Positions 14,932 to 30,810 of a stretch of 64,000 nucleotides of DNA are shown here, one piece after another; the stretch's first letter is position 1; each line of letters starts with the position of its first letter. The stretch lies in contig JANQFE010000016.1 in NCBI GenBank assembly GCA_028278025.1, positions 1-64,000 on the forward strand, in the 5' to 3' direction. Below the pieces are notes generated by a model. The model was given only the letters and a program-made list of their open reading frames with translations, made no database searches and was not told where the DNA came from. The DNA comes from Thermodesulfobacteriota bacterium (GTDB lineage Bacteria; Desulfobacterota; WTBG01; CAIYCZ01; CAIRTM01). Both the position numbers and the translations under genes were made by a program.

Positions 14932-16485
14932 ATGTCTATTCAGGGAAAAATAGAAACATTCTTTCTGTCCAGTCTGCTGCAACTTTTGAGCAATGACAAT
15001 AAAACCGGCATCCTGCAGCTCACTAATGATGAGGATACTGCAAAAGTATTTATTCAGGAAGGCACTATTGTATATGCGACCGGCTCAAAAGAAGAAGAAC
15101 GTCTGGGATATCTCATGAGAAGCGAAGGAGCCATCGGGCCCAAAAAGCTCGATAAGTGTTTACAGCTGGTCGAAGAAAGGCAGCAAAAACTGGGTAAAGT
15201 CCTGGTTGATGAAGGATATCTTACTGTCGAACAGGTGGAGAAATTTATCCACATGCAGGTGGAATTTATTCTCTACAACTTATTCATGTGGGATAAGGGC
15301 ACCTTTGATTATCATGACACCCCGCTTAACCTTGAAGGACAGATCATTACCCAGTTGAACACTATGGAACTTATCCTTGAGGCTTCACGTCGCGTTGATG
15401 AACTTTCGGTTTTAAAAAAACACTATCCTGATGATTCCTATATTTTAAAGCTATCAAAAAAACCCTCCAAGCAGGAAACGTTAAGACTTACTGCCCATGA
15501 AAAGTCTCTGTCTGCTCTTATTGACGGTAACCGCACAATAAAACAGCTTATTTATGAAAGCGGTTACGATGAATTTTCAGTCTATAAGGTTATTTATTCA
15601 TTGCTCTCTTCCGGGGTTGTTGAAATAGATGAAGCTGCAGTTGTTGCCGAACTCTTTCAGGACAACCTAAGAAAAGAAAAAACAGCTGAAGCGGATCTGA
15701 CTAAAAAATCCCGCCGTATGTACTATAGGTGTGCTGCACTTATTGCTGCAGTAGTTATAATAATCAGCACAATTGTCTTCCTCATGTTGCGGCCTTCACA
15801 AAAGCAGCAGCAAACAGCCTCGCCGGCAATAAAAAAGCCCCTGTCCGTACAAAAAAAAGAACCGGATTCAGATAGCCCGGAAAAACAACCCAAACCTCCG
15901 ACGAAACCAAAACAAACAAAACCTGCTGAACAAAAGAAATCTCGAACTGCTGAAACCTCTGACAAACCCGGAGCAAAGCCGAGCAAACAGCCACCACCTG
16001 CGGAGCAGAATACACTGGGTCTGCAACCGGTTTTTTTTCAGGACCCCCAAGGCACTTTTTCACTCACCCTGCCGGGAGGATATACTCTAAAAGACACGTC
16101 GGGGACAACGCACGGTGAAGTTACCTTGACCTATCCCCCCTATATTACAATAACAATCACTTCAGGCAAAGGGGATAAAGACTGGGAACCGGAAAGCAGA
16201 ATGTACGCAAAACTTCTGAGCCTGCAGGAACCCCGGGATGGCACCACTACACTGCATGCTGATCATTATAGTCTGATTGAAGCAGGCGGCTGCCGGGGAT
16301 ATGAGATGGAGCTGTCAGGCATTCGAAATTATACATTCTCCAGGGTTCAATTGTTTGCATTCGGGTGTAATGACAAGGAAGTGTTCATTGACATTGATTG
16401 CAAAGGCTGCAAAAAAGAACAGACCCGGACACTTTTTAGAACCATAATTGAGTCAGTGCATACTACCTTCCTTATGTATCCCTGA
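14932..16485 (+). CDS. DUF4388 (PATAN-like) membrane protein
   Basis: 517 aa. Residues ~1-115 are a DUF4388 domain (SLLQLLSNDNKTGILQL, KVFIQEGTIVYATG), a fold tied to signalling and gliding/secretion in deltaproteobacteria; a helical region LGKVLVDEGYLTVEQVEKF resembles the small N-terminal modules of GspE-type proteins. A winged-helix-like part to ~245, one membrane helix at ~266-287, a Pro/Lys/Glu-rich linker (~290-365) and an extracytoplasmic beta-rich domain (~368-515, PsbP/lipoprotein-like) follow. Probably transmits a signal between cytoplasm and periplasm; no partner identified. Confidence 0.75.
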   Translation: MSIQGKIETFFLSSLLQLLSNDNKTGILQLTNDEDTAKVFIQEGTIVYATGSKEEERLGYLMRSEGAIGPKKLDKCLQLVEERQQKLGKVLVDEGYLTVEQVEKFIHMQVEFILYNLFMWDKGTFDYHDTPLNLEGQIITQLNTMELILEASRRVDELSVLKKHYPDDSYILKLSKKPSKQETLRLTAHEKSLSALIDGNRTIKQLIYESGYDEFSVYKVIYSLLSSGVVEIDEAAVVAELFQDNLRKEKTAEADLTKKSRRMYYRCAALIAAVVIIISTIVFLMLRPSQKQQQTASPAIKKPLSVQKKEPDSDSPEKQPKPPTKPKQTKPAEQKKSRTAETSDKPGAKPSKQPPPAEQNTLGLQPVFFQDPQGTFSLTLPGGYTLKDTSGTTHGEVTLTYPPYITITITSGKGDKDWEPESRMYAKLLSLQEPRDGTTTLHADHYSLIEAGGCRGYEMELSGIRNYTFSRVQLFAFGCNDKEVFIDIDCKGCKKEQTRTLFRTIIESVHTTFLMYP

Positions 16486-19373: not shown

Positions 19374-21701
19374 TCAACACTCGGGCAGTTCGAATATGTT
19401 TGGGCAGCCTTCAGTTGGATCTGAACTTACACCCTCATCATATTCAGCTTCACCCTCACAGCTTGGATCCAGTTCCCAGGTTGTCCCGTCAGGACAGGTC
19501 CAAGTATCATCAGGATGCACGACATAGGTATCACCATTAGGCATTGTATAGGTAGTATCCTCGTTCTCTTCCGTTTTAACCGTATAGCATTCCTGATTGT
19601 CACTGCCATAAAACGTTGAGTTGCCCTGTTCATCAGTTTCAATTTTATAGCAGAGATCATCGTTTTTGTCATAAAAGGCCATGCCGTTTTCATTGGTTAT
19701 GAGATAACCGCCGTCTTCAAACTCCATGCGCATGCCGGATTCATCCATTGTCCTGCAGACCGGGCAGCCTGTTGGAGCACAGTCAATCTTGCACTCCAGA
19801 AGAAAATCACCGCACGGCACACACTTGGATTCATCTACCACCCCACCGCCGGAATCATCGTCATCATCACCGGCAGTGTCATCGTCGTCATCCCCGGTAT
19901 CATCATCGTCATCTCCGCCAGCGTCATCGTCGTCATCCCCGGCGTCATCATCGTCATCTCCACCGGTATCATCGTCGTCATCTCCAGTGTCATCATCGTC
20001 ATCATCTCCAGCTCCTTCGATAATCAGAGAAACACCTGAGCAGGTTTTCTTACGTGTTGCAACTGTTGCCGCATATTCACCAGGTGCTGCGTTTGCGGCA
20101 ATTTTTACTAAAGCAACAACCCTGTTGCGGATTGAAAGTGCGCCAATAACCTTCACAGCATCTGCCTGGGGACCGTCAAAAGTAACATCAGGAAGGCCAA
20201 GACCGATATCTTCTCCGGTAATAGTCACCAGAAGTCGTTTTGGCCTGTTTTGATTAGGTTTAACTGAGTCAGGCGCGATACCGGTCAGGATACAGTCAGC
20301 AGCATCATCGTCATCGTCTCCGGTGTCATCGTCATCATCATCCCCCGTATCATCATCGTCATCACCTGCCGTGTCGTCATCATCATCACCCGTATCATCG
20401 TCGTCATCTGCGGCAGTGTCATCATCATCGTCCCCGGTGTCATCGTCATCGTCTGTTTCAATTACGAACTTGTAAGCATTTGCATACACATTTCTCCCGG
20501 TATCAGCTGTCTCAAAATAATAGCTGTCAGCCTGCCAGAAGATACAGGCAGCCTGGTCATTTATCGTTATGGATAACGGCCCGATATCAGGCAGATTGGC
20601 TACCGGGGAAACAAAGGCTTCATCAGTCCAGGTTGCACCCGCATCAAAGCTGACTTTCGCAAGAACAGCCTTCGTGTTGTCCTCAATCTCATTGTATTCT
20701 CCGGACTTAAAACCAACAGCAACATTATTACCATAGGCTGCTATTGACGGCGTATCAAGACGCTGATTGTAGGTTATCTCTGCCGGCGGGCTCAGACGCA
20801 CATTGGATCCAAAGGTTGCGCCGTTGTTGTTACTGGTAGCCATGTAAATACCGAAATTAGTCTCTCTTCTGTCATGCCAGGCAAGATAGACGTTGCTACC
20901 GGCAGCAGCCACTACTACATTAGAGTGTATGTTTGTATTTGCGCCATCATCGTTAATCAGCTTCCATTCGGAAAAACTCTGGCCGTGATCTGAGCTGACA
21001 GTCAGATAGACATCATTAGAATCAATTTTTGCAATATAGAGATAGTCTCCGGAAGCTGCTATGGTATTGTTTGCTCCGGCAGTTGATCCGGCAACAGGGT
21101 CATTAAAGTTTTGACCGGAATCTGTACTGATGTATAGATTCATGCTGCCGGCAACATTGCCGCTGCAAGCAATATATACATACCCGCTGGAAACTGCAAT
21201 TTTAGGGTAGCCGTCAGCGGAAATAAACTGTTCCGGCAAAAAGCTGGCACCGCCATCGGTACTGCGCACAAGATATGTCCCTGGATTTTCCGTACGCGCA
21301 TCACTCCAGGCTATGTACACAACACCGTCATCATCAACCGCAATTGCAGGTCCGGAAGTTTTTGCTGATTTGACCGCCTGGGTACCGTCTGTAATAAGTG
21401 TATTTGCAGCAAAAGAAAACTCACCGCTCGGGGATATGGTGCCCTTTGAAAAGTAGATATCACTGTTCTCGGCACCCGCTCTTCCGTCAAGCCAGACGGC
21501 AAAGACATCGGTACCCGAAATACATACTTGGGAGTAATAGTTGTAAAGCAGCTGATCATATTCTGTCGCGTCATCGTTGACCTTTACATAGGAACCGAAA
21601 TCGGCATATGCAGCCGGCAAAAACAACAAGCATATACTGACACAAAGAGCTACAGGAGTTAACCAGAAGTGCTTCAGAGTCTTAGTTGGTTTTTCTGCCA
21701 T
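19374..21701 (-). CDS. Secreted BNR/sialidase-like beta-propeller protein with Asp-rich linkers
   Basis: About 775 aa. Signal peptide in residues ~10-35 (VALCVSICLLFLPAAYA). The first ~420 residues are repeats of the BNR/sialidase-fold kind (VAVDDDGVVYIAWSDAR, STDSGQNF, SSDHGQSFSEW) that build a propeller. Two Asp-rich linkers made of DDDDTGDDDD-type units flank a ~85-residue domain (GIAPDSVKPNQNRP...), and a Cys-containing C-terminal region (CPVCRTMDESG..., YTMPNGDTYVVHPDD) follows. The linkers probably bind calcium. Start chosen at the ATG after AAGGAGGATGAA. No enzyme residues identified, so adhesion or a structural role is as likely as glycan hydrolysis. Confidence 0.82.
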   Translation of the reverse strand: MAEKPTKTLKHFWLTPVALCVSICLLFLPAAYADFGSYVKVNDDATEYDQLLYNYYSQVCISGTDVFAVWLDGRAGAENSDIYFSKGTISPSGEFSFAANTLITDGTQAVKSAKTSGPAIAVDDDGVVYIAWSDARTENPGTYLVRSTDGGASFLPEQFISADGYPKIAVSSGYVYIACSGNVAGSMNLYISTDSGQNFNDPVAGSTAGANNTIAASGDYLYIAKIDSNDVYLTVSSDHGQSFSEWKLINDDGANTNIHSNVVVAAAGSNVYLAWHDRRETNFGIYMATSNNNGATFGSNVRLSPPAEITYNQRLDTPSIAAYGNNVAVGFKSGEYNEIEDNTKAVLAKVSFDAGATWTDEAFVSPVANLPDIGPLSITINDQAACIFWQADSYYFETADTGRNVYANAYKFVIETDDDDDTGDDDDDTAADDDDDTGDDDDDTAGDDDDDTGDDDDDDTGDDDDDAADCILTGIAPDSVKPNQNRPKRLLVTITGEDIGLGLPDVTFDGPQADAVKVIGALSIRNRVVALVKIAANAAPGEYAATVATRKKTCSGVSLIIEGAGDDDDDDTGDDDDDTGGDDDDDAGDDDDDAGGDDDDDTGDDDDDTAGDDDDDSGGGVVDESKCVPCGDFLLECKIDCAPTGCPVCRTMDESGMRMEFEDGGYLITNENGMAFYDKNDDLCYKIETDEQGNSTFYGSDNQECYTVKTEENEDTTYTMPNGDTYVVHPDDTWTCPDGTTWELDPSCEGEAEYDEGVSSDPTEGCPNIFELPEC
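19852..20011 (-). repeat. Asp-codon microsatellite-like tract 1
   Basis: Coding-strand runs of GAT/GAC codons broken by Thr-Gly, Gly-Gly or Ala-Gly pairs, forming the second Asp-rich linker of the BNR protein. Length is prone to slippage. Confidence 0.75.
20302..20456 (-). repeat. Asp-codon microsatellite-like tract 2
   Basis: Same composition as the tract at 19852-20011; encodes the first Asp-rich linker, directly after the propeller. Confidence 0.75.
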
Positions 21702-21797
21702 TTCATCCTCCTTGTAATTAAAAGTATTAAAAATATCAGTTTCCAGACACTTTTTAAATACTAAACATATAACAGTAGGCTGCTTTCGGTCAACAAA

Positions 21798-21840
21798 AAA
21801 CATCGGAAGGTGTGCAAACAGGCCCTCTTAACCGATGTTT
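21798..21840 (-). terminator. Terminator of the LysM/TPR operon
   Basis: On the minus strand AAACATCGG ... CCGATGTTTTTTG, just after the stop at 21847. Confidence 0.75.
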
Positions 21841-21846
21841 AATCAT

Positions 21847-22869
21847 TTAGGCATCTTTCAGTTTTTTAAGAATACTGCGGGCTTTTTCAATGTTCTTTTG
21901 AGCCTCTGTGTGTTCAGGGTTGAGTTCCAGGGTCTTTTCCCATTCCTGAATTGCTTCGGTCAGCTTTTCATTGACAAAAAAATTGACTCCCCTGCGATAG
22001 CATATCTCCGCCTCCTCTTGAAGAGCGTCCTGAAGGCCGGCAATTGCTTCCTGGATACCATTATAGTCCGGATCAGCATTGTTATACATCTGAAGCGCTT
22101 CTGTAAATTGTTTCTTTTCCTGCAGCCCTTTACCCAACCCATAATATGAAGCGTTTGCCAGTTCAGCAGCATCGGGATTAACCGGATCGTATTCAATGAT
22201 CTTCTCAACAGTATGAAGTACACTTTTGTATTTTTTTGCTTTTAAAAGTTTGTTTGCCCTGGCTAATTCGTTTTCAGTATCAAGCATTTTACTTGCCAGT
22301 TTTTCTTCAAGCACCGGAAACCCAAGGGTTGTTCCCGGCGCAAGAGGATTCTTACTGTCAAGATCATTAAAATAAGCAATTAAGAAGTCTTTTGCCGGAT
22401 CTTTATACACGCGTGCGGCGATTTTCTTAAGCGTATCTTTCTGCTGAACTGTATACATCTTGATATAGACACCGGGAAGCTTGTTTTTGAGATAGTCAAG
22501 TGCTTCAGCATGATCAGGATTGTATCTCAGCGTTTTCAAAAACTGAACCCGCGCCTCTTGTACAGATTTCTTTTCATAGTATTTCACGCCCGCTGAAAAA
22601 TGCTTTTCTGCTTTACTAATAATCTGCTTTTGTAAAGATTTTATTCTTTGAGCGGCTTTGCTGTTTCCCGGATCCATTGCGGCAACAATCTTCCAGCTTA
22701 AAACCGCCCTGGGCAGATCACCGCTTTTTTCATAGTTCAAAGCCGCCTGCTGATGCCGCGCTGCAACTGATCCTTGAGCGCTTCCCCGTTGTGCAGACAT
22801 ACCCGCGCAGCCGGAACAAACAATGATTATGCAAAAAATCAAGACAGTTAATATGAATAATTTTTTCAT
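21847..22869 (-). CDS. Lipoprotein with TPR-like and LysM domains
   Basis: 340 aa. Signal peptide with lipobox CSGC at ~19-22; TPR-like repeats before and after a LysM-like segment (~138-185: YTVQQKDTLKKIAARVYKD). The C-terminal TPR repeat contains AIQEWEKTLELNPEH. Probably an envelope protein bound to peptidoglycan that recruits partners. Its ATG overlaps the stop of the polysaccharide deacetylase gene by 4 bp, indicating translational coupling in a three-gene operon with the cyclase. Confidence 0.82.
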   Translation of the reverse strand: MKKLFILTVLIFCIIIVCSGCAGMSAQRGSAQGSVAARHQQAALNYEKSGDLPRAVLSWKIVAAMDPGNSKAAQRIKSLQKQIISKAEKHFSAGVKYYEKKSVQEARVQFLKTLRYNPDHAEALDYLKNKLPGVYIKMYTVQQKDTLKKIAARVYKDPAKDFLIAYFNDLDSKNPLAPGTTLGFPVLEEKLASKMLDTENELARANKLLKAKKYKSVLHTVEKIIEYDPVNPDAAELANASYYGLGKGLQEKKQFTEALQMYNNADPDYNGIQEAIAGLQDALQEEAEICYRRGVNFFVNEKLTEAIQEWEKTLELNPEHTEAQKNIEKARSILKKLKDA

Positions 22870-23861
22870 TTCAATTTTTCTTTCTTAAACATTGTCAGAT
22901 TCTTTTGAAATCTCCTGAGAGAATAATCACCATAGATTGAAGAACGGTTAACGATGTAGTTATTCATAAAAAAGGGATTGCCTCCGCGATGAACCGTAAA
23001 GGCCCCCCGGTATCCGTATTTCTTCAGGAGGGCAATCACAAGGTTGTTGGTATCACCATAAGGATAAGCAAGATAGGTGCACTTTTTGTTCAACTTTTTT
23101 TCAATAAGCTTTTCTGAGGCAACAATTTCTTTCTCAATGGCCCTGAAATATTTTTCAAATGTCTCATCTTTTTGCATCTGGATAAGATTACGGTGTGTCT
23201 TGGTGTGGTTTTGAATATCAAAACCGTTCTGTGACAGCTCTTTAACCTGGTCCCATGACAAACCGCTTCTGGTGCCGATCAGGTTGGTATACACAAAAAG
23301 GGTGGCAGGGAATCCGTACTTTTTTAAAACAGGGTAAGCAATATCATAAACCGACTTCCAGCCGTCATCGATAGTAATCACAACAGATTTTTCCGGTATC
23401 TGCTCTTTCAATTCCAGAAAACCAAACAGCTGGTCAAGCGTCAACACAGTATACCCGTTTGTTTTTAAGAACCGCATTTGCTCATCAAATGCATCCCGTG
23501 GTATTATCATTTTGGTAACTTTATCTTCAGAAAAGTTGTGATAGACAAGAACAGGTACTGTCTGATAACCGGTAGGTGTCAGACCGCCTTTTTGCACAGG
23601 TTTCAAGGGAATGATTACCTGCTGGCCCCATGATACGTGGTCAATATTATTAAATTCAGCAATAACCCAGTCCTTGGCCGAGTCATTCAAGTGCTTATCA
23701 GCAAGCTTTGGCAGGTCATCCCATGGGCCGGCTGTGACAATTACAAAATCATTGAACCTTTTTGCGGGACTGAATACGGCACAGGCATTTATACAAAACA
23801 GGCTCACAACAAGCATTACAAAAAAAACATGTTTACGTTTGTGTTTCATTTTTAGCATCAT
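22866..23861 (-). CDS. Polysaccharide deacetylase (NodB-type) lipoprotein with N-terminal LysM-like region
   Basis: 331 aa. Lipobox-like CINAC near residue 26; LysM-like segment ~40-90; NodB homology domain ~105-300 with VITIDDGW (the TFDDG motif, catalytic Asp and first metal ligand), NHTKTH (HxxxH metal site) and YLAYPYGDTN (motif 3). Such enzymes remove N-acetyl groups from peptidoglycan or exopolysaccharide in the periplasm. Start overlaps the end of the cyclase gene by about 29 bp. Substrate unknown. Confidence 0.88.
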   Translation of the reverse strand: MMLKMKHKRKHVFFVMLVVSLFCINACAVFSPAKRFNDFVIVTAGPWDDLPKLADKHLNDSAKDWVIAEFNNIDHVSWGQQVIIPLKPVQKGGLTPTGYQTVPVLVYHNFSEDKVTKMIIPRDAFDEQMRFLKTNGYTVLTLDQLFGFLELKEQIPEKSVVITIDDGWKSVYDIAYPVLKKYGFPATLFVYTNLIGTRSGLSWDQVKELSQNGFDIQNHTKTHRNLIQMQKDETFEKYFRAIEKEIVASEKLIEKKLNKKCTYLAYPYGDTNNLVIALLKKYGYRGAFTVHRGGNPFFMNNYIVNRSSIYGDYSLRRFQKNLTMFKKEKLK

Positions 23862-25602
23862 CTTCTTCCCTCATGCTGCTGACCTTATAAATTTCAATTG
23901 GAGCAGATTTGCCTTTAACCTTCTGAGGAGGCAAGGCTTCTGCTTCTAACCGATTGCCAAGCTGCTCATAAACACTTTTACTGACAATAATTTCACCCGG
24001 ACCGGCAAATCCATTCAGGCGTGAAGCGAGATTTACCGTATCACCAATAACCGTATACTCCATTTTTACTGCTGAGCCAATGTTGCCTGAAACCACTACC
24101 CCGGCATTGATACTGACCCCTATGGATGCAAGCAGGCTGTTGCCGTTATTACTGGCCTTCCCAAACTCCCGCTGCATTGCAAATGCTGCCCGTACCGCTC
24201 TCTCTACATGATCATTGTAATAAACCGGCACTCCGAAGACAGCCAGCACCGCGTCCCCGATAAACTTGTCAATGAATCCGCCGTATTCAAGAATAGCACG
24301 GGTTGCAATCTCAAAATATTCATTGAGGTTCTCTACCACTTCCTCGGGTTCTTTGCCCTCGGCATACGCGGTGAAACCGCGTATGTCTGTAATAAGAACC
24401 GTTACTTCGTCACGCTTACCTTTAAGCCAGGTGTTTTCCGGATTTTCCATGATAAGCTCAAGAACCTCTGAGCCTACATACTTGCCAAATGACTTCTCCA
24501 TTACCGATTTCGTCCAGAGCTCTTCACCCATGTAATTAAATGCGGTAGCCAGGTTGCCAAGCTCATCATTTCTATTTAATTCCAGATTAACTTTGTAATT
24601 ACCTTTAGATATCTCCTGGGTAGCCAGCACAAGTTTTGCAATCGGCCGTGAAAAGCTTATGCCAAGCGTTCCTGCAACAAGGATTCCCAGGATAACGATT
24701 ATAAAAGTCATTATAAAAAGTGAAAACCGTTCTTGACGTATTAACTGCTCAATAAAATCAATCGATACACCAACATGCACTTCACCCAGAATTTTCTCTT
24801 TGAATGTTATTGGCTGGGTCAGGGTCAAGACCTTGTTCCCGTTAGGATGAATATAATTAAAATAGGTTACCGCTCCCTTGGTAACCATGTTTTCAATAAA
24901 CGCGGCTTGTTGAAATGCCGTGCCTATTTTTTTATGATCGGTATGCGCTTTGATATTCTTATCAAGGTCAACAATAATGGCATAGAGAAGCCCCTCAACG
25001 TTTGTTGCATTTTTAATCAGGGTATTGAGCTCCAGGATATTATCTTCAAGCAGAGGAATGCGGGCATTGTTCGAAAAATAGTTTAAACTGACCATGCCGA
25101 TCTTTACGGTCTGCTCATAAAGCTGCTCTTTCTGACGTCTCAAAATAATAAAATTTAACAAAAAAATTGTTATAAAGACAATCAGGGTAATGGTAGCCGA
25201 CAGTTTAAGCCAAATAGGTACGCGTGAGGAGGTTAAGCGGTCAAGGAAGGTCCCCCGTTTCTTATTTATGAGCATATCAAATTTATCGGAGAGAGATGAT
25301 ATTGAGAGGTGATAGTGGCTGTTGATAATTTGGACAATTTTATGCTCAGGGGCAAAACCTAAATCGACAATGACCTTCCCCAGGTGAACAGCCTTGCCAA
25401 GCTTGTGTAGTTTATCCTTCTGTTCAGTAAGGGCAATCTGCAGCTGTTCACGGGTAATGACATTTTTTTGTTCCAGCACCTCGCCCAGCTGCATTTTATA
25501 ATCATCAGCTGATTGTATTATTCTTTTCTGCAGCTTTTTAAAACTTATATCGCTTAGATTTTTCAGGATTCCCTTCACCTGCATGAGAAAACTCTTTTTC
25601 AC
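23833..25602 (-). CDS. Class III adenylate/guanylate cyclase, membrane-bound with HAMP
   Basis: 589 aa. An N-terminal helical module of the GspE-N/MshEN kind (~38-110, LGEVLEQKNVITREQLQIAL); membrane helix ~129-153; a periplasmic sensor region; second helix ~285-307; HAMP ~308-365; catalytic domain ~395-575 with both metal Asp residues (LITDIRGFT, FIGDAVLAVFG) and GDTVNLASRL. All visible catalytic features are intact, and the substrate residues fit ATP. A GTG start is given; an ATG six codons on with AAGAG upstream is also possible. First gene of an operon with the deacetylase and TPR protein; divergent from a cNMP-binding protein. Confidence 0.92.
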   Translation of the reverse strand: MKKSFLMQVKGILKNLSDISFKKLQKRIIQSADDYKMQLGEVLEQKNVITREQLQIALTEQKDKLHKLGKAVHLGKVIVDLGFAPEHKIVQIINSHYHLSISSLSDKFDMLINKKRGTFLDRLTSSRVPIWLKLSATITLIVFITIFLLNFIILRRQKEQLYEQTVKIGMVSLNYFSNNARIPLLEDNILELNTLIKNATNVEGLLYAIIVDLDKNIKAHTDHKKIGTAFQQAAFIENMVTKGAVTYFNYIHPNGNKVLTLTQPITFKEKILGEVHVGVSIDFIEQLIRQERFSLFIMTFIIVILGILVAGTLGISFSRPIAKLVLATQEISKGNYKVNLELNRNDELGNLATAFNYMGEELWTKSVMEKSFGKYVGSEVLELIMENPENTWLKGKRDEVTVLITDIRGFTAYAEGKEPEEVVENLNEYFEIATRAILEYGGFIDKFIGDAVLAVFGVPVYYNDHVERAVRAAFAMQREFGKASNNGNSLLASIGVSINAGVVVSGNIGSAVKMEYTVIGDTVNLASRLNGFAGPGEIIVSKSVYEQLGNRLEAEALPPQKVKGKSAPIEIYKVSSMREEDDAKNETQT

Positions 25603-25829
25603 TCTCTTATATCTTATTCAAACAAAGTCCCCATAATTTTCTGGATAGCGTTGTTGTGTACCCCAATAGCAGTGGCAGGAAGTAAATTTTTAACTGCTTG
25701 GATATACTATCAAATATTAAGATATTGTCAATTATTGTCTTTTTGTAAATTATTACGTTTTACAGGGTGTTACAAAACAGGTACGGCACTGTTGCGGGCC
25801 TAAGGATCCTCCAACTCACAGGCTGCATA

Positions 25830-25858
25830 TTGACAAGGTGTGTTTTGTGGGATATCAT
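25830..25858 (+). promoter_or_regulatory. Sigma-70 promoter upstream of the cNMP-binding fusion gene
   Basis: TTGACA (25830-25835), 17-nt spacer, TATCAT (25853-25858). The 317-bp divergent region otherwise shows no repeat or palindromic TGTGA-N6-TCACA site. Confidence 0.65.
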
Positions 25859-25919: not shown

Positions 25920-28790
25920 ATGAAAAAAATAAAGCAATATAAATATGAGCGTGACATAGCCTCCGGCACACCTCATGACATACAACAAATGCATGATGGA
26001 TCACGTGGTACCTGCATTAAAAAAATTGGTGATTATCTTATTGATGAAAAGATATGCACTAAAAATGTTGTTGATCTCGCAGTAGAATTACAGACAACCC
26101 TCAGCAAACAGGGTGTTTATAAACCCCTGGGCAAAATCATGGTCGAGGCTGACTATATTGATGCTGAGGTGCTTGCTCGCTATGTATTCCGTCAATGGGT
26201 TGATATTCTCTCTTCTGCCTCACTCTTTAAAGATCTCTCCCTTGATTCAGTAGTAAAAATTGCTGCAGTAGCTGACCACTATATACTTCCGGCAGATATA
26301 GACATTTTCCATGAGCATGACCCTGGCGATACATTCTGTATGATTATATCAGGCCGTGTTCGGGTTTACCGTACTACCGAAGATGGCCTTGGCAACACCC
26401 TTGCTGCCCTTGGTCGTGGGGATTGTTTTGGTGAAATGGCACTGCTTACCGGCGCACCTCGCTCAGCATCTGTTGCAACCCTGGAACCGACAAGCATCTT
26501 GGTTGTACCCAAAAATGATTTTGATAATGTCCTTGCAGACAACCCCGACCTTTCCAGAACGTTTGCCAAGATGCTGGCTGACCGTTTAAAAGCCAGCAAT
26601 ATCCATCTTTCCAAAGCAACAGAAACTGAAAAAGCCTATCAGCGATTTGTTACTGAACAGAGCACTACCATAGATTACAGAATTTTAGGCAAAAGCAGGA
26701 TTTTCCGCAAGCTTCAGGACAGTATCGTCGCTGTTTCAAAAAACAAAAATCCAGTACTCATTACCGGTGAACTCGGTACTGAAAAGCAGAGTGCCGCCTG
26801 GGAAATCCATGAGCTTTCTAATCAGCCCGAAAGCCCTTTTCTCATTTTTGATGCCGAAACGGCAAATATTGCCAGCAGCCAAGCTGAAACGAAAAGCCAG
26901 GATATTATTCAAATTGAGGTTGCTCAGAGGAGCGCACTGTTTGGGCATAAAAAAGGCTCTTTTTCTTTTGCCAAAACCCGGCGACTGGGTCTCATTGAAG
27001 TGGGCAACGGAGGCACACTTGTTATTGAAAACATCGAGTATCTGGCTGAAAGCGTGCAGTTAACCTTGTTAAAATTCATTAAAACCTTCACGTTCAGACC
27101 CCTTGGAGAACAGGTTGCCGCGCATTCATCAGTCCGAATTATTGTCACGACTACCAGTGACCTTGCCCGGTTGGTTGACGTCGGCAAATTTAACCGTGAG
27201 CTTTACCAGCTGCTTACACCCCAGCTGATAATGATTCCCCCTTTACGCAACCGCAAAAAAGACTTACAGATTATTGTCGATTACCTTGTGCAGCGCTATA
27301 GCGATCAGACAAACAAATCTATCAAGGGAGTCGATCCCGGTGCATATCAGCAAATAATGACCTATGACTGGCCCGGCAATCTGGACGAGCTCAAAGTCGT
27401 CACCCGCAGAGCGGTTAATGTTACGCAATCTGATATACTCGGTGCTGAACACCTTTTTATCGGCATGACACCGGTAGAGGGCAAAATCACATTTAATCTG
27501 TTGAAGTTTGAAAAAATTCAGAACTTTTTTAAAAGCAGGCTTTTCCCTGTACTGCCCCAGGCTGCAGGTATTGTCTTTTTTGCAGTGCTCCTCTACCTGG
27601 GCTATTTTTCCAGTCGGCAAGCCGACAGCAACATCTCCTCAATCCTTACCTGGGGTCTGTGGTGGCCGTCCCTGGCAATATTGTGGCTGCTGATTGCACG
27701 TGCATGGTGCGCAATCTGTCCCATGGGTGCCGTAAGTGAGTTGTTATCCAGGTTTTGCAGCCTCGGTTTAAAAGTCCCCCGCTTTATACGCGAATACGGT
27801 TTCTATTGTAGCGCTCTGGGTCTCTGTATCATTATCTGGTTGGAATCAACTGTTTCCATGCCATATTCACCTCGTTCTACCGTTATGCTCATATCCGCCA
27901 TTATAACTCTTGCGGCCCTCTGTGGCCTTCTGTTTCAGCGTCGCGTCTGGTGCCGTTTTATCTGCCCGCTGGGTCATTTAAGTGGTATTATGGCGCGCTG
28001 CTCTGTGCTGGAGTTCCGCGCCAATACCAACGTGTGCAATAATGATTGTATGGACCATAGCTGCTATGTCGGTAACGAGCAGGCCTTGGGGTGCCCTATG
28101 TTTGAGGGCCCCTTCTCCCTGAATTCCAATCAGCACTGCATCCTCTGCGGCAATTGTGTAAAAACTTGTCCCAAGCAGTCCCCGCGCCTCAACCTGAGAC
28201 TGCCCGGATATGAGCTCTGGAATGTGATTAAGCCGGACAAAATCATGCCTGTCATTGTTCCTTTAATCATCAGCTCACAGCTGTTTCGCGGTTTTGAAAC
28301 AACTGCATTCTACCATGTCGGTGAAGTTTATTTCGGGCAGCGCTGGATAGCTATGGCCGTATCCTTTCTTGTGTCAATTATCATTTCTCTCTTTTTGGTC
28401 AGGTTCTCCGGCTGGCTTGCCTTCCGTCACTTGAAAAATCCTTCAATTAAAAAAACAGATCTTTTTGTATACGCGGTTCTACCTCTTGCATTTTCATTTG
28501 AGCTGTCCTATCAGCTGAAACCCTTGCTCATGAGAGCGGGACAGTTCCTGCCAGTACTGGGACGTCAACTGGGATTTTACTGGGATTTTCTCGGCGTGAG
28601 TGCAAACAGCGGGTTTGTGAAGATTCTACAGATTTTGATTGTTATCGTCGGCATGTTTGCTTCACGGGCAATTCTTGTCAGTCTTGCCCGGAAACATGAA
28701 GAAGACCATCGGTCGTCACATACCGTTCAGAGACGCTGGCCCATCGTGTTGCTTGCTACGCTGTATGTATGGCTCTTTGTAACAGGTTAA
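25920..28790 (+). CDS. cNMP-binding / degenerate NtrC-like AAA / membrane polyferredoxin (NapH/NosR-like) fusion
   Basis: 956 aa. MshEN-like module ~33-100; cyclic-nucleotide-binding domain ~101-220 with phosphate cassette FGEMALLTGAPRSASV; AAA domain ~254-510 of the sigma-54 activator type but degenerate: Walker A is GELGTEKQ (second Gly lost), GAFTGA is GSFSFA, and Walker B ends VIENI instead of LDEI. No HTH follows. From ~547 come membrane helices, two CxxxCP sites (C597/C600 and C678/C682) and a 4Fe-4S motif C740-x2-C-x2-C-x3-CP. Likely a cAMP-gated membrane redox protein; electron partners unknown. No clear ribosome site. Confidence 0.88.
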   Translation: MKKIKQYKYERDIASGTPHDIQQMHDGSRGTCIKKIGDYLIDEKICTKNVVDLAVELQTTLSKQGVYKPLGKIMVEADYIDAEVLARYVFRQWVDILSSASLFKDLSLDSVVKIAAVADHYILPADIDIFHEHDPGDTFCMIISGRVRVYRTTEDGLGNTLAALGRGDCFGEMALLTGAPRSASVATLEPTSILVVPKNDFDNVLADNPDLSRTFAKMLADRLKASNIHLSKATETEKAYQRFVTEQSTTIDYRILGKSRIFRKLQDSIVAVSKNKNPVLITGELGTEKQSAAWEIHELSNQPESPFLIFDAETANIASSQAETKSQDIIQIEVAQRSALFGHKKGSFSFAKTRRLGLIEVGNGGTLVIENIEYLAESVQLTLLKFIKTFTFRPLGEQVAAHSSVRIIVTTTSDLARLVDVGKFNRELYQLLTPQLIMIPPLRNRKKDLQIIVDYLVQRYSDQTNKSIKGVDPGAYQQIMTYDWPGNLDELKVVTRRAVNVTQSDILGAEHLFIGMTPVEGKITFNLLKFEKIQNFFKSRLFPVLPQAAGIVFFAVLLYLGYFSSRQADSNISSILTWGLWWPSLAILWLLIARAWCAICPMGAVSELLSRFCSLGLKVPRFIREYGFYCSALGLCIIIWLESTVSMPYSPRSTVMLISAIITLAALCGLLFQRRVWCRFICPLGHLSGIMARCSVLEFRANTNVCNNDCMDHSCYVGNEQALGCPMFEGPFSLNSNQHCILCGNCVKTCPKQSPRLNLRLPGYELWNVIKPDKIMPVIVPLIISSQLFRGFETTAFYHVGEVYFGQRWIAMAVSFLVSIIISLFLVRFSGWLAFRHLKNPSIKKTDLFVYAVLPLAFSFELSYQLKPLLMRAGQFLPVLGRQLGFYWDFLGVSANSGFVKILQILIVIVGMFASRAILVSLARKHEEDHRSSHTVQRRWPIVLLATLYVWLFVTG

Positions 28791-29994: not shown

Positions 29995-30810
29995 ATGAAA
30001 AAAATTGCCGTAGTATACGTATGCATACTATCAGTAGCTGTGTTTTACCTGTATTCTAAAAGCACCTCAACCTCTTACGAACCCTCCAAACCTAGGTGTG
30101 AAGACATTGATTGTTCAGAAATAATAACCTGCCCCGCCGGACAGTTTCCTGAGCTAATTTGTATAGTAGATGACGACGTTGATGATGACAGCAGCGAGGG
30201 TGTAAGCAGTGCTGATGACAGCAGCGATGAGCACAGTGATTGTGACAGCTACGACGGTGTGAGCAGTGATGATGACAGCAGCACTGCATCCAATGATGAT
30301 GAAGACTGTATACATTGTGAGTTTAGTGATGGCGATGCCGATAGCAGCGAGGGTGTGAGCAGCGCTGATGACAGCAGCTACGGGCAGGATAGCGAAGACG
30401 ACAGCCACGATGGTGTAAGCAGTGATGATGACAGCAGCACTGCAGCCAATGATGATGACCATTGCACCTGTTGTACCTGTGCATGTGTCGTTTTAATAGA
30501 ACTTAGTTCCTTTGAAGCTATCCCTGAGAACGGTAAAGTTGTTTTGCGATGGACGACAGATGCTGAGATTGACAATGCCGGTTTCAATATTTACCGGACC
30601 GGCAAAGACGGAGGGTCCAAAAAGATAAATGAGACATTGATACCCGCCAAGGGTTCTCCTACAGAAGGTGCATCATATGAATTTGTAGATGATACCGCAA
30701 AATTCAAATATACATATTCCTATCTGCTGGAGGACATTGACGTAAATGGGGTTGCAACCGAACACGGACCGGTGAGCCTGAAACCGAGGTGGTATAAGTT
30801 GTTGAAATAA
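29995..30810 (+). CDS. Secreted Asp/Ser-rich repeat protein with C-terminal Fn3-like module
   Basis: 271 aa. N-terminal signal peptide or anchor (AVVYVCILSVAVFYLY). Residues ~58-160 hold two 51-residue copies of an Asp/Ser-rich unit (SSEGVSSADDSS, DGVSSDDDSSTA). Cys clusters flank them. The C-terminal ~95 residues (VVLRWTTDAEIDNAGFNIYR ...) are a fibronectin-III-like module shared with the protein at 56910-57704. Probably cell-surface and calcium-binding. Good GGAGGGTG ribosome site; a terminator follows. Confidence 0.75.
   Translation: MKKIAVVYVCILSVAVFYLYSKSTSTSYEPSKPRCEDIDCSEIITCPAGQFPELICIVDDDVDDDSSEGVSSADDSSDEHSDCDSYDGVSSDDDSSTASNDDEDCIHCEFSDGDADSSEGVSSADDSSYGQDSEDDSHDGVSSDDDSSTAANDDDHCTCCTCACVVLIELSSFEAIPENGKVVLRWTTDAEIDNAGFNIYRTGKDGGSKKINETLIPAKGSPTEGASYEFVDDTAKFKYTYSYLLEDIDVNGVATEHGPVSLKPRWYKLLK
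30190..30464 (+). repeat. 153-bp tandem duplication inside the Asp/Ser-rich gene
   Basis: AGCAGCGAGGGTGTRAGCAG starts at 30190 and again at 30343, a period of 153 bp (51 codons); similarity continues to about 30464. Confidence 0.7.

Follow-up and report, generated by a model that had tools for sequence, protein, structure and literature searches.

A pseudo-AAA head on a membrane polyferredoxin

The gene at 25920-28790 (+) is a single unbroken ORF encoding one membrane protein of 956 residues, in which, we propose with moderate confidence, a NapH-type Fe-S protein for electron transfer or redox sensing carries a cytosolic pseudo-AAA regulatory head. It lies in the window, a stretch of 64,000 nucleotides from a Thermodesulfobacteriota bacterium. 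Pfam recognizes a cNMP_binding domain (residues 128-208, 2.4e-23), Sigma54_activat (residues 255-432, 1.2e-30), AAA_lid_14 (residues 443-512, 7e-16) and Fer4_5 (residues 576-620, 3.3e-8), with a weak Fer4 match at residues 737-754. An earlier note had read the gene as a cNMP domain, a dead NtrC-like AAA domain and a membrane polyferredoxin in one frame, and the intact ORF, the Pfam matches and an NCBIfam NapH/MauN match confirm this architecture. How the domains are arranged in the full-length protein is uncertain, because the full-chain AF2 model reaches a pTM of only 0.50 (pLDDT 81.5). The true start codon may be further downstream, as homologs start near residue 30. A sigma70-like promoter (TTGACA-17-TATCAT, 11/12, a consensus match only) is found at 25830-25858 (+), 61 bp upstream of the fusion's start.

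The protein begins with a degenerate MshEN-like module (residues 33-97, 26016-26210, +) containing the motifs KIG...K...Q and PLG...D...Q, separated by a spacer of 10. The consensus of MshEN c-di-GMP receptors is two (R/K/L)LG...G...Q motifs with a spacer of 5 (PMC11731258). The fusion scores 20.7 bits against the NCBIfam c-di-GMP_motif model, below the cut-off (E 0.0017 within the genome), and the cyclase encoded next to it scores 38.1, just reaching the cut-off of 38. Compared with the published motif, both modules are degenerate, with spacers of 10-11, and these motifs make a canonical c-di-GMP site in the fusion doubtful. A third MshEN-type gene in the window, at 14932-16485 (+), encodes a DUF4388 protein and scores above the NCBIfam cut-off (40.9 bits).

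The AAA domain has lost catalysis and kept its fold

The sigma54-type AAA+ domain (residues 255-442, 26682-27245, +), assigned by Pfam and by its match to NtrC1 (1ny6), is predicted to be catalytically dead. Its Walker A is degenerate (GELGTEKQ, residues 283-290, 26766-26789, +), with GTEKQ replacing GTGKE; the GAFTGA loop has become GSFSFA (residues 346-351, 26955-26972, +); and E370-N371 stand at the Walker B site where DE is expected (27027-27032, +). Both Arg fingers and the sensor II Arg are also missing. The losses of Walker A and GAFTGA are thus as the earlier note described them, but the first Walker B acid, which it counted as lost, is a D-to-E change that is still acidic; it is the catalytic Glu that is gone, replaced by Asn. 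The AAA lid (residues 443-512, 27246-27455, +; Pfam) keeps WPGNxxEL, and the predicted AAA fold matches NtrC1 1ny6 in Foldseek with a target TM-score of 0.92.

The same pattern extends to the whole family. The Walker B Glu is present in one of 82 aligned fusions and replaced by Asn in 72 of them. GAFTGA is intact in none: its Thr survives in 1/52, and the cyanobacterial members have deleted the loop. The first Arg finger is absent from all 52 fusions that have the segment. Five bona fide activators from the same genome, aligned as a control, keep every catalytic residue; therefore, the motif loss in the fusions is not an alignment artefact. LFG, RxxD, WPGN and the lid Glu are retained in 81-82 of the 82 fusions, and dN/dS of the AAA domain is 0.06-0.28 in 12 diverged pairs (zero in a nearly identical thirteenth pair). 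Because catalytic loss is family-wide, the fold residues are near-invariant and dN/dS is low, the sequences indicate that the pseudo-AAA domain is ancient and under selection, and is not decaying.

A NapH-like membrane part with twelve conserved cysteines

Residues 530-956 (27507-28787, +) form the NapH-like membrane polyferredoxin, as judged by Pfam, NCBIfam and a structural model of this part with about nine TM helices (pLDDT 84.7, pTM 0.85). A PDB structure search returned no solved structure resembling its fold. NCBIfam NapH/MauN (TIGR02163) matches 34 of the 34 fusions scanned, including the one in the window. Twelve Cys (597/600, 678/682, 706/710/715/725 and 740/743/746/750; 27708-28169, +) are conserved in fused and unfused relatives alike and are predicted to hold three [4Fe-4S] clusters. 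NapH-like proteins have been described as quinol-linked electron carriers (PMC8238504), and a membrane redox role for the fusion is consistent with its NapH homology and its twelve Cys. The NapH/NosR likeness claimed earlier was therefore borne out by the NapH/MauN match, Fer4_5 and the Cys, without the FMN domain of NosR: Pfam finds no FMN-binding domain of the NosR/PceC kind in the window protein or in the other fusions scanned. In some unfused polyferredoxin relatives, the N-terminal head is replaced by a YHS (L012) or a cupredoxin/COX2-like domain (L016), which suggests variants linked to metals.

Family spread and gene neighbourhoods

A scan of a genome collection found at least 80 related loci in at least five phyla: Desulfobacterota including Geobacterales, Nitrospirota, Planctomycetota (Scalindua), Armatimonadota and Cyanobacteria. 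Two cyanobacterial plasmids carry related loci as well. In all proteins that could be extracted from these loci, the order cNMP, AAA, polyferredoxin is constant, with GAF domains in between in some. In a phylum-wide sample, the membrane part occurs in 20 of 148 genomes, about half of which, as judged by frame length, could encode a fusion. The literature that we searched holds no published description of this architecture or of its cyanobacterial gene context; the family, whose architecture is real and conserved across phyla, is apparently undescribed.

In a tree, the window copy belongs to a well-supported clade of ten (100/100) with a common MshEN-like N-terminus. The sole recurrent neighbour in this clade is a membrane protein of 152-164 residues from no known family, encoded upstream in four loci. 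These small proteins (L041:2177-2668 and its equivalents in L038, L039 and L042), which have no Pfam match, lie directly upstream of the fusions. Beside the window copy there is no gene for a reductase, a dehydrogenase or an ApbE/FMN partner, and none recurs beside its close relatives. Elsewhere in the window, 19374-21803 (-) and 29995-30810 (+) encode proteins that are apparently secreted and whose long repeat linkers are rich in Asp (DDDDDTG, DDDSSEGVSS).

In Cyanobacteria, cysK is found downstream of the fusion in 15 of 30 loci; in 14 of the 30 it is co-directional, with a gap of 0-110 bp. Other genes recur nearby: cydAB (cytochrome bd oxidase), rhodanese, DsrE, PetC, an SQR-like flavoprotein and ArsP permeases. 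From this content of redox and sulfur genes, the cyanobacterial neighbourhood is a predicted sulfide or low-oxygen setting. Cyanobacterial genomes (L030, L031, L092-L115) apparently carry one to three fusion paralogs of two subfamilies, one of which is co-directional with cysK.

What could the head act on? The membrane part may read the quinone pool and the head bind or sequester a protein of the cytosol (in Cyanobacteria, for instance, cysteine synthase), so that the fusion is a redox sensor with a protein-binding output. The closely spaced cysK genes favour such an output, as do an AAA fold that is dead yet strongly selected and the lack of any catalytic partner, fused or adjacent. However, no partner is conserved across clades, and the close clade has only the small upstream protein in common. 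We therefore consider this reading possible and hold it tentatively, behind that of a regulatory head on an electron-transfer or redox-sensing protein.

The cNMP pocket and the neighbouring cyclase

The cNMP-binding domain (residues 128-208, 26301-26543, +; Pfam) carries the phosphate cassette FGEMALLTGAPRSASV, in which the canonical E and RSA are present (E172 and R181-S182-A183). By this cassette, the site appears intact, as had been suggested. An intact pocket is not a family-wide trait: only about one fusion in four retains the phosphate-binding Arg. Both the E and the R are retained in 21 sequences, comprising 16/16 of the Geobacterales type, 3/11 of the window's clade and 2 others; in eight of the eleven close-clade members, His or Tyr takes the place of the Arg.

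A class III nucleotidyl cyclase (23833-25602, -; MshEN-like, sCache_3, HAMP and Guanylate_cyc, the last at 1.1e-26 in Pfam) is encoded divergently, 317 bp from the fusion. It is the first gene of its own operon, followed by a polysaccharide deacetylase (NodB; 22866-23861, -) and a LysM/TPR protein (21847-22869, -), and has its own promoter-like site at 25704-25731 (-; TTGACA-16-TAGTAT, 10/12, a consensus match only). The description of this gene in the earlier note as a full class III cyclase, divergent at 317 bp and with an N-terminal module of the same kind, is accurate: Pfam supports the cyclase, and the module is MshEN-like in both proteins.

These two genes could form a dedicated pair, in which the adjacent cyclase makes the cAMP that the cNMP domain binds, and this binding gates the electron flow. 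The intact E/RSA cassette, the full-length cyclase at such a short distance with its similar N-terminal module, and the presence of class III cyclases in all seven close-clade genomes tested would fit this reading. However, neither gene keeps the other across relatives. The cyclase-deacetylase-LysM/TPR operon recurs in a genome of the same family (G002) and in one of the same class (G011), with cyclases that are 53-55% identical, and the fusion is absent from both. Conversely, for nine close homologs the upstream side is covered by sequence, and in no case is the immediate neighbour a cyclase; in one locus (L044), an unrelated CHASE2-type cyclase lies 3 kb from the fusion. The Arg substitutions in the close clade and the separate promoter-like sites also speak against a pair, as does the finding that, among eight Geobacterales-type genomes tested whose pocket is intact, six have no detectable class III cyclase (PF00211); there, therefore, the ligand differs or is made otherwise. 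Thus, the co-occurrence of fusion and cyclase elsewhere is not supported, we rejected the pairing as such, and the cyclase seems to lie beside the fusion by chance, not as its partner, which makes the dedicated pair unlikely. Its operon is possibly a cAMP-linked envelope module in its own right. Since class III cyclases are present in all seven close-clade genomes, the window copy may be under cAMP control. Of the second-messenger-controlled redox gate that had been proposed for this locus, the membrane redox role is consistent with the NapH homology and the twelve Cys, but the pairing with the cyclase is not supported, given the independence of the operon and a pocket that is not family-wide.

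The fusion is not a sigma54 activator

No HTH above the cut-off was found in the fusion by Pfam: HTH_Crp is absent and HTH_52 appears only at E 0.45. No sigma54 above the cut-off was found in 15 cyanobacterial genomes that carry the fusion, and the same search recovered it in 12 of 13 Desulfobacterota genomes, including that of the window. The missing sigma54 argues strongly against a role as transcription activator, and since the AAA motifs are dead as well, sigma54 activation is not the conserved function. We therefore rejected this role, in agreement with the earlier note, which had argued that the protein is not a transcription factor.

Might the head act on activators instead? A redox-controlled anti-activator would join genuine sigma54 activators by AAA-AAA contacts and poison their rings. 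The NtrC1-like fold of the pseudo-AAA domain and the presence of sigma54 and many activators in the window's genome are compatible with this, but the cyanobacterial carriers that lack sigma54 still hold the domain under purifying selection, and we regard an anti-activator as very unlikely. A decaying chimera or an assembly artefact, which the lost catalytic motifs might suggest, is ruled out, because isolates and MAGs from at least five phyla share this architecture and dN/dS values are well under 1.

A model for the fusion

In the reading that we favour, a regulatory head on a NapH-type protein, the fusion would exchange electrons with the quinone pool or sense its redox state. The NapH/MauN match, the twelve Cys and the redox and sulfur genes near the cyanobacterial copies speak for this reading; the absence of a recurrent redox partner gene in the window's clade, a membrane fold with no solved counterpart and the uncertain domain arrangement speak against it. 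The pseudo-AAA head would derive from a sigma54 activator that lost ATP hydrolysis and sigma54 contact. It would be retained for its fold, which probably serves in assembly and in relaying conformational changes from the sensor domains at the N-terminus to the membrane-face Fe-S clusters, or in the reverse direction. The sensor input would differ by clade, with an intact cNMP pocket in the window copy and in Geobacterales, a degenerate pocket with GAF domains in some other members, and a pocket that is not usable in the cyanobacterial ones. The window's genome has four cyclases, any of which could supply cAMP as the ligand. Electron transfer, the direction of signalling, the oligomer and the ligand are what we infer for the fusion. 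More broadly, and tentatively, these proteins may form a class of membrane redox proteins that is so far undescribed, spans several phyla and is regulated by ligands. In this class, a sigma54-activator ring that is dead and fixed by an ancestral Walker B Glu-to-Asn change would gate a NapH-type Fe-S electron path, and the ligand of the window copy would be cAMP.

An activator AAA domain has apparently been reused, without its ATPase, as the regulatory head of a respiratory-type membrane protein, which would be a clean example of very long conservation of a pseudo-ATPase. This explains why copies in Cyanobacteria, although sigma54 is missing there, bear misleading labels such as "nitrogen assimilation regulatory protein". 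Through the copies that sit beside cysK, a connection of the cyanobacterial proteins with sulfide or low-oxygen physiology can be tested.

Comparison with known systems

The fusion shares with the sigma54 activators NtrC, PspF and NorR the AAA+ fold and lid and the LFG and WPGNxxEL residues, but it is membrane anchored and lacks GAFTGA, the Walker B Glu, the Arg fingers and a DNA-binding domain. TyrR and Rhodobacter NtrC are activators that lack GAFTGA. They resemble the fusion in having an activator-type AAA domain without sigma54 contact; in contrast to the fusion, they retain a DNA-binding domain and act on transcription. The cNMP-binding domain with its canonical phosphate cassette is reminiscent of the CRP/FNR family, from which the fusion differs in having no HTH and a pocket that is not conserved across its own family. 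With NapH, NosR and PceC, it has in common the Fer4_5 membrane hairpins, the CxxCP and CxxxCP pairs and the cytosolic ferredoxin-type Cys motif. It stands apart from them by the missing FMN-binding domain and nap, nos or pce context, by five additional C-terminal helices in the model, and by its large cytosolic head of sensor and pseudo-AAA domains.
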